A DNA stretch of 33,468 nucleotides, taken from NCBI GenBank assembly GCA_025054575.1, contig JANWZN010000016.1:1-33468 (forward strand), given 5' to 3'. A model generated the notes under the pieces. The model was not told the origin of the DNA, made no database searches, and was given only the letters and a program-made list of their open reading frames with translations. Of this stretch, positions 1-2,174 are shown one piece after another. The translations under genes and the position numbers were made by a program. The stretch's first letter is position 1. Each line of letters begins with the position of its first letter. Origin of the DNA: Geminicoccaceae bacterium (GTDB lineage Bacteria > Pseudomonadota > Alphaproteobacteria > Geminicoccales > Geminicoccaceae).

Positions 1-846
1 GAGAATGGCGGCGCGAAGTGCCGCCTCGGGACAGGCGCGGGCGGCGCTGCCGAGCTCCCAAGCGGCGCCGTCGTGGGCACCGGGTCGCTCGGGCATGAGA
101 TGGCAGAAAACCACTGGAACGCCGAGGTCGGAGGTCGCATCCCAGGCGGCGAGCAGCATGCCCGCCGCGCGCAGGCGGCCGATCAGCGCCCGGGTCGACG
201 GCTCCCGCACGCTTTCGAGGTCGATCCGGCTCGCGGCCTTGGCGAACGGGTCGCGCAGCCGCCAGAGGGTCACGGCGTCGCGCTCGACGAGCTCGAAGAG
301 GGCATGGAGCGCTGCTCGCCCCGGCGTGCGGCCGCTCGCGAGCCCGCTCGAGCTCAAGGTGAAGCAACCGCGTCCGGGTTCGGCCTCGCGGGTGCTGTCG
401 AGCTCGACGAGCTCGGCTGGCACCATGAGCTCCTCGCCGGTCGCGAGATCGCGGCCGGGAAGCCAGGGGATCGGCAGCTCGGGCCGGAGCCGACTGCCCC
501 GCGGAGGCGCGAGCCGGGCGAGATCGAGAAACAGCCGATCGCCGGCGACGGCGCGGGGCGCCGCGCGCAGCTCGGGCAAGCCCGGAACCTCGGCGTGCCA
601 GGTCTCGATGCTCTCCATCGCGGCACCAACGAACGCAGCGGCCCGTTCGAGGCCCTTCCCCTGGCTCACCGCGAGAGCACGGGCGTTCGGCCGGACCGCG
701 ACCGCTACCGGAATGCCGAGACGATCGAGGCCGGTGACGTCGGCGATCCGGGTGATGCCGAACAGGCCGAGCCGCGGGCGCAACCAGCGCCACAGCGTCT
801 CGGGCGGACCCGCCGGCAGAACGGGCCCAGCGGGAAGCCAGGGCAA
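1..846 (-). CDS. YcaO-domain peptide-modifying enzyme, partial (C-terminal part beyond the left edge)
   Basis: YcaO enzymes use ATP to activate backbone amides of ribosomal peptides, making azolines, amidines or thioamides. About 282 codons are visible. Near the N-terminus is ITRIADVTGLDRLGIPV, then VRPNARALAVSQGKG and the helix AAMESIE (nucleotide and Mg2+ side of the fold), and later SSGLASGRTPGRAALHALF followed by ELVERDA. This order is characteristic of stand-alone YcaO proteins, including those paired with TfuA. The reading frame is open from the stop of the upstream precursor-like gene; the only usable start in the short leader is TTG at 846, just after a hairpin, with no clear Shine-Dalgarno, so the start is uncertain and translation may be coupled. 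The neighbour with tandem GKQRFA repeats is the obvious substrate candidate. Family assignment is firm; the chemistry is not determined by the sequence seen. Confidence 0.9.
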   Translation of the reverse strand, partial: MPWLPAGPVLPAGPPETLWRWLRPRLGLFGITRIADVTGLDRLGIPVAVAVRPNARALAVSQGKGLERAAAFVGAAMESIETWHAEVPGLPELRAAPRAVAGDRLFLDLARLAPPRGSRLRPELPIPWLPGRDLATGEELMVPAELVELDSTREAEPGRGCFTLSSSGLASGRTPGRAALHALFELVERDAVTLWRLRDPFAKAASRIDLESVREPSTRALIGRLRAAGMLLAAWDATSDLGVPVVFCHLMPERPGAHDGAAWELGSAARACPEAALRAAIL

Positions 847-865
847 GGCGGGCGACGCGCGAGGA

Positions 866-889
866 GCGCCCCGGCCGAGACCGGGGCGC
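866..889 (-). terminator. Intercistronic hairpin between precursor-like gene and YcaO
   Basis: A perfect 9-bp inverted repeat (gcgccccgg / ccggggcgc) with a 6-base loop lies 9 bases after the precursor stop and 19 bases before the proposed YcaO TTG. No T-tract follows, so it is more likely an attenuator or an mRNA-stabilising or processing element than a full terminator. Such an element would let the peptide be made in excess over its enzyme. Confidence 0.5.
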
Positions 890-897
890 CCTACGGT

Positions 898-1296
898 TCA
901 AAGACCGGGTTCGGCCGCGAAGCGCTGTTTGCCCGCCGAGGGCGCGGCCGGCTCCAGCGCGTCGGCGAACGCGGCGGCGAAGCGCTGCTTGCCACCGGCG
1001 GGCGCCTCGGGCTCGACTGCTTCCAAGAGGCCCGGCGCGAAGCGCTGCTTGCCGCCGGTGGGTGCCTCGGGATCGATCTCGGTGACGACGATCCGATCGC
1101 TCAGGATCGCGTTCTTGAGACCGTGCACCGCCGCGACACGATCGAGCGCCTCGATCACGCCGTCGCCCGCAGCACTGCCGCGCTGTTGGTCGTCGGGCAG
1201 GCGGTAGCGCTGAACGAGATCGGCCAGGGGGACGAAGAAGAGGGTGTCGTCCCGGCCGCGGAGGAGGAGGCCGGGGCTGTTGTCGGTGTGGGTCAT
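898..1296 (-). CDS. Candidate multi-core RiPP precursor with three 20-residue GKQRFA repeats
   Basis: The protein has 132 residues and matches no family I recognise. Residues 1-73 form a leader-like part with LLLRGRDDTLFFVPLADL near the N-terminus and an amphipathic stretch at about 46-73. Residues 74-132 contain three tandem copies of a unit of the form E/D-P-x-A-P-x-(G/A)-G-K-Q-R-F-A, with GKQRFA at 82-87, 102-107 and 122-127, exactly 20 residues apart. The last copy ends the protein. The core has no Cys and only one Thr and one Ser, at the variable x position. ATG at 1296 has GGAG seven bases upstream. The gene directly precedes a YcaO gene, the typical position of a substrate peptide. Seen: the repeats, their period and the neighbour. 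Inferred: that it is a modified and cleaved precursor. It could instead be a repeat-bearing partner protein. Confidence 0.72.
   Translation of the reverse strand: MTHTDNSPGLLLRGRDDTLFFVPLADLVQRYRLPDDQQRGSAAGDGVIEALDRVAAVHGLKNAILSDRIVVTEIDPEAPTGGKQRFAPGLLEAVEPEAPAGGKQRFAAAFADALEPAAPSAGKQRFAAEPGL
917..1053 (-). repeat. Three 60-base tandem repeats encoding the GKQRFA units
   Basis: A 17-base block (gcgaagcgctgYttgcc on the plus strand) recurs at 917-933, 977-993 and 1037-1053, so the period is exactly 60 bases. The copies diverge mostly between the blocks. Conservation of the block and of frame points to selection on the encoded peptide. Confidence 0.85.
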
Positions 1297-1364: not shown

Positions 1365-1370
1365 ATTATA
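1365..1370 (-). promoter_or_regulatory. Perfect -10 box (TATAAT) upstream of the precursor-like gene
   Basis: On the minus strand an exact TATAAT lies just beyond the bpt stop codon and about 68 bases before the precursor ATG. It sits in one of the few AT-rich patches of this GC-rich window. No good -35 is seen at 17 bases. It would give the precursor-YcaO pair its own transcript. Confidence 0.5.
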
Positions 1371-1384
1371 TGCAAGAGCATGGG

Positions 1385-2119
1385 CTATAAGTCCTCGCAC
1401 CCGAGGACGTCCCGCCGCACCCAGCGCCCGCCCTCGAGCACCTGCAGGGGCCGGAAGCGTCGCTTGTAGGCCATCTTGCGGCAGTCGGCGATCCAATAGC
1501 CGAGATAAACGAAGGGCAGTCCGAGCTCGCGGGCACGCTCGACGTGCCAGAGAATGATGAACGTTCCGAGCGAGCGCTCCGGCTCGTCCGGCTCGAAAAA
1601 TTTGTAGACGCCGGAAAGGCCGGTGGCGGTGTAGTCGGTGAGGCTCGCGCCGACCAACCTCCCGTCCTCGTCCCTCAGCTCGACGAGCTTGGTCGACGGG
1701 CCGACTTCTTCGACCATGTCGACATAGTCGCGCCAGCCCATCTCGGCCATGCCGCCGTCGCCGTGGCGGCTCGTGATGTAGCGGCGGAACAGGAAGAACT
1801 GCTCGTCGGTGGCCCGCGCCGGTCGCTCGCTCGCCCGCAGGTCGCGGTTCCGCTTGAGCACCTTGCGAAAGCTGCGGCCCGGCCGGAAGGCCGCGACTTC
1901 GATCCTGGTCGGCACGCAGGCCCGGCAGCCCGGACAGGAGGGTCGATAGAGGAAGCGCTGGCTGCGGCGGAAGCCGGCTTCGGTCAGACGATCGAGCAAC
2001 TCTTGATCCGAAGCGGGATCGAGCAGGGTCACGAGCCGCCGCTCGAGCCGCCCGGGCCGATAGGGGCAAGGCGAGAGGTCGGTAGCGTAGAACCTTCGGC
2101 TCGGTGTCGATCCTTCCAA
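1385..2119 (-). CDS. bpt: Aspartate/glutamate leucyltransferase (Bpt-type aminoacyl-tRNA-protein transferase)
   Basis: Bpt moves leucine from Leu-tRNA to N-terminal Asp or Glu, making an N-degron for ClpS/ClpAP. Family landmarks are FYATDLSPCPYRPGR near the N-terminus, the Cys pair region RPSCPGCRACVPTRI, YITSRHGDGGMAEM, and the acyltransferase core YKFFEPDEPERSLGTF followed by YLGYWIADCRKMAYK. TTG at 2119 leaves about eight residues before FYAT, the usual family length (244 aa); an alternative in-frame TTG at 2161 would add 14 residues. Neither has a strong Shine-Dalgarno. The gene follows a two-helix membrane protein gene closely and is probably transcribed with it. The related arginyltransferase activity (Ate) cannot be excluded from sequence alone. 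Confidence 0.9.
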   Translation of the reverse strand: MEGSTPSRRFYATDLSPCPYRPGRLERRLVTLLDPASDQELLDRLTEAGFRRSQRFLYRPSCPGCRACVPTRIEVAAFRPGRSFRKVLKRNRDLRASERPARATDEQFFLFRRYITSRHGDGGMAEMGWRDYVDMVEEVGPSTKLVELRDEDGRLVGASLTDYTATGLSGVYKFFEPDEPERSLGTFIILWHVERARELGLPFVYLGYWIADCRKMAYKRRFRPLQVLEGGRWVRRDVLGCEDL

Positions 2120-2174
2120 GCGTCCGTTCCGTCCCTTCGTAGCGAATGGCGGATGCGCCAAAGACGAGACCGCG

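Follow-up and report, generated by a model that had tools for sequence, protein, structure and literature searches.

At the left edge of the stretch of DNA analysed here (hereafter the window; 33,468 nucleotides from a Geminicoccaceae bacterium), a gene of the YcaO superfamily is cut off by the end of the contig and is preceded by a gene encoding a 132-residue protein that ends in copies of the motif GKQRFA. This arrangement raises the question of whether the repeat protein is a substrate of the neighbouring enzyme and, if so, which chemistry would be applied to the repeats and how the modified units would be set free. It is probable, in our judgement, that both genes belong to a three-gene cassette that makes a multi-core RiPP, in which YcaO and TfuA would thioamidate each repeat unit and a C11 protease would cut it out. 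The features of the window that bear on this reading are the following:

1..846, minus strand: ycaO, first 282 codons from a TTG start, truncated by the contig edge (PF02624).
863..891, minus strand: GC-rich hairpin between the precursor stop and the ycaO start (from folding; comparable stems in four of five congeners, not in L014).
898..1296, minus strand: predicted precursor protein of 132 aa, with a leader of ~80 residues and three 20-residue units (open reading frame, eight complete homologous loci, alignment A1).
916..933, minus strand: unit 3 motif GKQRFA, residues 122-127 (from the sequence).
922..981, minus strand: predicted excised peptide 2, FAAAFADALEPAAPSAGKQR, if cleaved after Arg (from the C11 specificity described in PMC4850288 and PMC11296011 and the K/R-free linkers).
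976..993, minus strand: unit 2 motif GKQRFA, residues 102-107 (from the sequence).
982..1041, minus strand: predicted excised peptide 1, FAPGLLEAVEPEAPAGGKQR, if cleaved after Arg (same grounds as for peptide 2).
1036..1053, minus strand: unit 1 motif GKQRFA, residues 82-87 (from the sequence).
1057..1296, minus strand: leader, residues 1-80, with the conserved pattern GLLLR..DD.LFFVPL..L..RYRLPDDQQRG (alignment A1).
1365..1370, minus strand: TATAAT of the original prediction, not conserved in congeners (sequence, promoter scan).
1385..2161, minus strand: arginyl-tRNA-protein transferase family gene, the upstream neighbour of the precursor gene (Pfam/NCBIfam).

Judged by its sequence, the truncated gene certainly encodes a YcaO protein, which matches Pfam PF02624 (E 1.8e-45) over positions 1-224 of 325. 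The edge of the window at ycaO is also the edge of contig C77, and the remainder of the gene was not found in the assembly, genome G000, which contains a single YcaO match. Both genes lie on the minus strand, where 51 nt separate the stop of the precursor gene from the TTG start of ycaO, in agreement with the original prediction that an edge-truncated ycaO directly follows the repeat-protein gene. Moreover, GKQRFA starts at residues 82, 102, and 122 of the repeat protein, so the three units described at an exact period of 20 residues are present as stated; in a shuffle control, a 5-mer occurring at least twice was seen in 344 of 20,000 shuffled versions of the protein, a count that includes any with three copies. 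No Pfam or NCBIfam family reaches its cut-off with the 132-residue protein, and the precursor family was likewise not found in the literature searched; the original prediction, too, knew of no described family with this repeat.

Relatives of the repeat protein were sought in overlapping sets of sequences. Matches were obtained in 8 of 96 genomes, its own included, and in 8 of the 31 genomes of the family in a profile search; a profile search of a class sample of 385 genomes gave three matches, all from the window's genus and one of them its own. A single-sequence search of GTDB r220 contigs gave six loci, and the corresponding search of plasmids gave no relative. The eight genomes of the family set comprise six of the window's genus and two of a second, Geminicoccus-type genus. 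Within the window's genus, the named records consist of metagenome-assembled genomes under the labels Geminicoccaceae, Alphaproteobacteria, or Pseudomonadota; another named record with the cassette is that of Geminicoccus harenae (L022). Loci L017-L021 were treated as repeats of G003, G005, G004, G001, and G002 and left out of all counts.

Across nine proteins, namely that of the window and eight relatives, 22 units were counted by the pattern GKxxF, and the alignment shows no clear unit lacking it. Each protein contains two or three units, a variation in repeat number that the original prediction had proposed looking for. The unit motif of the family is GK[QD][RK]F, and the unit is 20 residues long, or 19 in the Geminicoccus-type genus. 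A further Gly stands ahead of GK in 18 of the 22 units, with Ala instead in unit 3 of each of the four proteins that have three units, while the residue preceding F is basic in all units except unit 3 of L012, where it is Cys (KQCF; thus, 21 of 22). By its YcaO, the three-unit window groups with the two-unit L013 and L014; a single loss of unit 3 would therefore be the most parsimonious course of events within the genus. The structure model of the precursor is poor (mean pLDDT 50.6), with blocks of pLDDT >60 in the leader only; in this model the leader has a little predicted structure and the tail of units has none, the tail being probably disordered.

The relatives also indicate what lies beyond the edge of the contig. 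In all eight complete homologous loci, which represent two genera of one family, the genes are ordered repeat protein, YcaO, and a TfuA::C11 fusion, with the repeat-protein gene directly upstream of the ycaO-tfuA pair. A TfuA and a protease, both of which had been proposed as things to look for to the left of the window, are therefore present there in every complete relative. The fusion protein has ~635-660 residues and combines TfuA at its N-terminus with a C11 (clostripain-type) peptidase domain at its C-terminus; these domains were assigned by Pfam for two loci and by full-length alignment for the other six. The reading frames of ycaO and tfuA share 4 nt in the five congeners measured. The genome of the window lacks the TfuA half as well as the end of YcaO; what remains, at two contig ends, is the start of ycaO and, at the last bases of contig C404, the C11 half. 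A gene for a thiamine-pyrophosphate enzyme lies downstream of the C11 half in C404, and the same gene follows the fusion in five of five congeners; thus, C77 and C404 very probably meet at this point, with ~1.2 kb missing between them, as judged from the lengths in L014.

The surroundings of the cassette differ between the two genera. In the window's genus, the arginyltransferase gene lies upstream in five of five congeners; in the second genus, this gene was not found in the flanks examined (that of L016 covering only 1 kb upstream), and an FMN-type oxidoreductase is located downstream, as typed in L022 and indicated by the same start in L015 and L016. This difference singles out the three genes as the unit, and the arginyl-tRNA-protein transferase gene probably lies outside it.

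Co-distribution points in the same direction. Among the 31 genomes of the family, the repeat protein and the fusion occur in the same eight (in that of the window as the C11 half only) and neither occurs in the other 23, of which 13 contain a TfuA lacking C11 and none the fusion; YcaO is present in 22 of the 31. A match this exact would have a chance of 1.3e-7 if the genomes were independent, although its true weight is much less because they form two genera. These co-occurrence counts, as well as the K/R counts presented below, rest on related genomes of two genera. The in-match stops of G002 and G027 in the fusion search are, by position, the genes' own stop codons. It might be argued that YcaO, TfuA, and C11 act on another substrate and that the repeat protein is an unrelated neighbour, given that many YcaO-TfuA pairs are found in Alphaproteobacteria, where they lie next to other small proteins. 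However, this is very improbable in view of the exact co-distribution and the fixed order in two genera whose surroundings are otherwise different. Moreover, the repeat protein lies beside YcaO in eight of eight complete loci and was not found away from it in the genomes searched, as the original prediction required of a substrate.

The two cassette genera form one clade (FastTree support 0.973) in a tree of 45 loci built from YcaO and TfuA combined, and a single fusion event is enough to account for it. This tree omitted L079, near whose TfuA no YcaO was found, and kept L117 in spite of its YcaO being downstream of TfuA. No match spanning TfuA and C11 was detected outside the family among the 29 matches listed for the class sample of 385 genomes (family members included) or the 30 listed for an overlapping phylum sample of 398, at most three candidates per genome being scored in both searches, and none of the 409 matching plasmid records covers 80% of the fusion.

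Several further observations concern genes at other positions. In G017, TfuA is on C1 (L079) and YcaO on C5 (L156), while most loci seen have them adjacent. G005 carries a single YcaO, in its cassette, and also a stand-alone C11 gene (L080:4849-6465), which was rejected as a part of the system because it lies ~120 kb from the cassette; matches to this separate gene were obtained in four other congeners, with none listed for G000. Participation in phage defence was also considered and set aside, as none of the PADLOC models matches the three proteins.

Regarding the chemistry, the enzymes resemble those that thioamidate a glycine of McrA. The best NCBIfam score of the window YcaO is to the McrA-glycine thioamidation YcaO (120.9 versus 88 for SagD), below the cut-off of that model; for the YcaO of L014, the scores are 172.8 bits with the same model (cut-off 365) and 111.6 with SagD, and the TfuA of L014 scores 181.8 bits to the McrA-glycine partner model, under the equivalog cut-off of 235.2. 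The McrA thioglycine has been described as needing both the YcaO and the TfuA genes (PMC5589413), and PMC13063428 refers to TfuA as a hydrolase that is employed together with a thiocarboxylated carrier. The TfuA partner and the McrA-type score of YcaO thus argue for thioamides rather than water loss, so that, of the two mass shifts anticipated for the product, sulfur-for-oxygen is favoured and water loss is not.

An alternative in which YcaO forms a ring, such as the azolines of linear azol(in)e peptides, would be compatible with the YcaO superfamily and with the Ser or Thr that the alignment shows in some linkers, but is highly unlikely here. Cys, Ser, and Thr are absent from the conserved motif, which speaks against azolines, and also from FAPGLLEAVEPEAPAGGKQR of the window protein; the SagD score is below the McrA-type score, YcaO has a TfuA partner in eight of eight loci, and no E1-like partner of YcaO was found among the immediate downstream genes typed in two loci.

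The second half of the fusion belongs to peptidase family C11. C11 domains were recognized by Pfam PF03415 in two loci (6e-25 and 2.3e-26). A profile of the fusion compared with the PDB retrieves TfuA of M. acetivorans (6xp8, 3.3e-50) and clostripain (9cip, 8.4e-16), both of which are also matched by fold by the structure model of the fusion (mean pLDDT 74.1, pTM 0.58). Nine of nine sequences (eight full ones and the C404 fragment) have the WGHG His as well as the Asp and Cys of the FDAC motif, which by sequence comparison are the counterparts of the dyad and S1 Asp in PmC11 and clostripain. These residues are described as His133, Asp177, and Cys179 in PmC11, whose P1 takes Arg and Lys (PMC4850288), and as His176, Asp229, and Cys231 in the Arg-specific clostripain (PMC11296011). 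Globupain, a C11 relative, is reported to be less strict in its Arg/Lys specificity (PMC12280095) and, therefore, such a specificity of the C11 half cannot be taken for granted.

In the mechanism that we propose, the repeat protein would be the precursor, with a leader of ~80 residues followed by two or three units of 19-20 residues ending in GK[QD][RK]F. In each unit, a backbone amide would be activated by YcaO with ATP and converted to a thioamide with sulfide supplied by TfuA, most likely at the Gly just before the invariant Lys, a site suggested by the analogy with McrA. The C11 domain of the fusion would cleave each motif behind its Lys or Arg, and thioamidated peptides of 20 residues, or 19 in the Geminicoccus-type genus, would be released. 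For cleavage of the window precursor behind Arg, the calculated [M+2H]2+ of FAPGLLEAVEPEAPAGGKQR is 1019.042, or 1027.030 if it bears one thioamide, and that of FAAAFADALEPAAPSAGKQR is 995.013 or 1003.002, respectively; cleavage behind Lys would yield isomers of equal mass that start with QR. Thioamides are described as recognizable by a gain of 15.977 Da, by absorbance near 270 nm, and by the lack of fragmentation at the modified bond (PMC6511847, PMC5589413). The composition of the precursor in the window's genus is consistent with such a cut: Lys and Arg make up 48 of 480 leader residues versus 0 of 179 linker residues, a distribution that would be expected to suit a Lys/Arg protease with the motif as its target. 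In the second genus, however, the linkers contain 3 K/R in 21 residues, so that a cutter of this kind would make extra cuts there, and KQCF in unit 3 of L012 is a misfit to cutting after Arg at that place.

The K/R within the linkers of the second genus would also fit an alternative in which the repeat protein is thioamidated and not cut up, serving in a structural or binding role, while C11 acts only on itself or on the leader. McrA and uL16 are known thioamide targets outside RiPPs (PMC5589413, PMC13063428), and the three-gene unit includes no transporter (exporter) or immunity gene, both of which would fit a protein that stays whole. We nevertheless regard this alternative as unlikely, since closely related species differ in unit number and the fusion was found only with this precursor. 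In addition, the linkers encoded next to the predicted K/R protease contain no Lys or Arg in the window's genus, and the model of the precursor, albeit a poor one, shows no structure in the tail. Returning to excision of the units, it is possible, at somewhat under even chances, that TfuA was fused once, in the ancestor of the two genera, to an Arg/Lys-specific caspase-like protease, bringing thioamide installation and core excision onto one enzyme pair. If so, the thioamide might act as a licence to cut, or as a shield setting where cutting stops. The repeat protein and the two enzymes look like a compact factory for a modified peptide: substrate, modifying pair, and likely protease constitute a three-gene unit that can be expressed whole, and the cassette occurs in a named strain of Geminicoccus harenae.

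Two further elements had also been noted in the window, a hairpin between the genes and a -10 box ahead of the precursor gene. The hairpin stands, with -31.0 and -33.5 kcal/mol in the window (two cuts) and comparable stems in L010, L011, L012, and L013, whereas the intergenic fold of L014 is weaker and different (-18.5 and -19.9 kcal/mol). In the second genus, the two genes are seemingly too close for such a hairpin, and the fold of the 80 nt after the stop lies mostly inside ycaO. A scan for T-run terminators gave none. The hairpin could possibly regulate the ratio of precursor to enzyme. Regarding the -10 box, the TATAAT itself is present, but no sigma-70-like promoter passes the scan and none of the five congeners has the hexamer within 130 nt upstream of the ATG. 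The window and the five congeners share a TTG-type hexamer located 79-84 nt upstream of the start codon, as a loose pattern picked after looking. In L011, L013, and L014, pieces of the CCTAG/CTAGG type were seen by eye around this hexamer, and together they are a possible operator.

The upstream regions of 38 other TfuA loci, 37 of them with a YcaO near, were read by eye and contain precursor candidates of many kinds, with clear tandem units in three (L066, L069, and L070). Repeated cores are thus an occasional theme of the YcaO-TfuA pair, of which the family of the window is one instance, marked out from the others by the protease fusion. Among the same-strand frames listed for 14 loci of the family without the fusion, no such units were seen, and a repetitive GC-rich frame of L064 was set aside in the upstream reading as a likely frame artefact.

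Some of these candidates merit individual description. In L066 (G116), ~0.6-1.0 kb before ycaO, a 138-residue protein has five tandem DDSQRHAANFIGT units and a variant, and is a candidate for a second, unrelated multi-core precursor. Just before ycaO in L069 and L070, candidates of 58-59 residues end in two short copies (SAEIF.. / SADLY..), and their leader, LTRGADGRLYR, resembles that of L066. A conserved candidate of 74-78 residues lies just before ycaO in L061, L062, and L067, with the pattern YYVP..W....VPDD and an invariant QTGEGIGSACYL stretch; the resemblance of these YYVP...VPDD precursors to the leader of the window family is not significant (hhalign probability 3.6%, E 0.012, 21 columns), and a common origin was not retained. 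In L149, one of the 14 family loci without the fusion, the start of a candidate, GLLIRTADGATYFI, recalls the leader of the window family.

The cassette has to be placed among the systems already described. Malit et al. (2021) assigned 70% of TfuA clusters to Proteobacteria, with >1000 TfuA-related clusters in that phylum at a time when the known TfuA-YcaO thioamidated RiPPs were all from Actinobacteria (PMC8120280). A cluster figure of that paper includes a prolyl endopeptidase (S9), while the words C11, clostripain, protease, and Geminicocc are absent from its main text; similarly, clostripain, C11, and TfuA do not occur in the available text of a review of RiPP-maturation proteases (PMC10885120). 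Neither the precursor family nor the TfuA-protease fusion was found in the literature searched, which was mostly without subscription papers and does not prove absence in print, and for Geminicoccaceae together with RiPP this literature yielded only unrelated soil work.

Precursors with several cores each are known in cyanobactins, whose protease differs in type from C11. These pathways lead to azolines and macrocycles, whereas here a C11 cysteine protease is joined to TfuA. As proposed for the cassette, the cyanobactin cores are flanked by conserved cleavage sites (PatA/PatG, PMC4603692), and the PatG protease is described as fused to a dehydrogenase in 18 cyanobactin clusters (PMC4603692). 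A C11 peptidase has been proposed for a proteolytic step of a RiPP in the lanthipeptide clusters bai and cro (PMC13343206), although as a stand-alone gene for a second cut after that of a C39 transporter, and with no YcaO-TfuA named in the part of that source available. With clostripain and PmC11, the cassette protease has in common the His/Cys dyad and an S1 Asp two residues before the Cys, and their acidic pocket takes Arg in clostripain and Arg/Lys in PmC11 (PMC11296011, PMC4850288); however, both are unfused to TfuA and clostripain is secreted. As for the modifying pair, the YcaO-TfuA system for the McrA thioglycine of methanogens (PMC5589413) gives the best NCBIfam scores for both cassette enzymes and has a glycine target, as proposed here, but its substrate is a large enzyme subunit, and the cassette enzymes score under the equivalog cut-offs.

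The closest parallel is found in the thiovarsolins of Streptomyces varsoviensis (varA, varY, and varT; PMC6511847), in which YcaO and TfuA are likewise encoded beside a precursor with imperfect repeats, numbering from none to five across the family described in that work. The thioamide of thiovarsolins lies between the Pro and Arg of an APR core (PMC6511847). In contrast to the APR/GPR of thiovarsolins (PMC6511847), the motif of the window family is GK[QD][RK]F, and neither APR nor GPR occurs in the nine repeat proteins. Furthermore, the var cluster is described as being without a specific protease, with endogenous peptidases suggested instead (PMC6511847), whereas the protease of the cassette is fused to TfuA, and the cassette occurs in Alphaproteobacteria and thiovarsolins in Actinobacteria. 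Thus, the part of the original prediction that read the locus as a multi-core YcaO precursor is supported, while the proposal of a candidate new RiPP system has to be narrowed: since repeated cores with YcaO-TfuA were already described in thiovarsolins (PMC6511847), the cassette of the Geminicoccaceae represents a new variant rather than a new kind.
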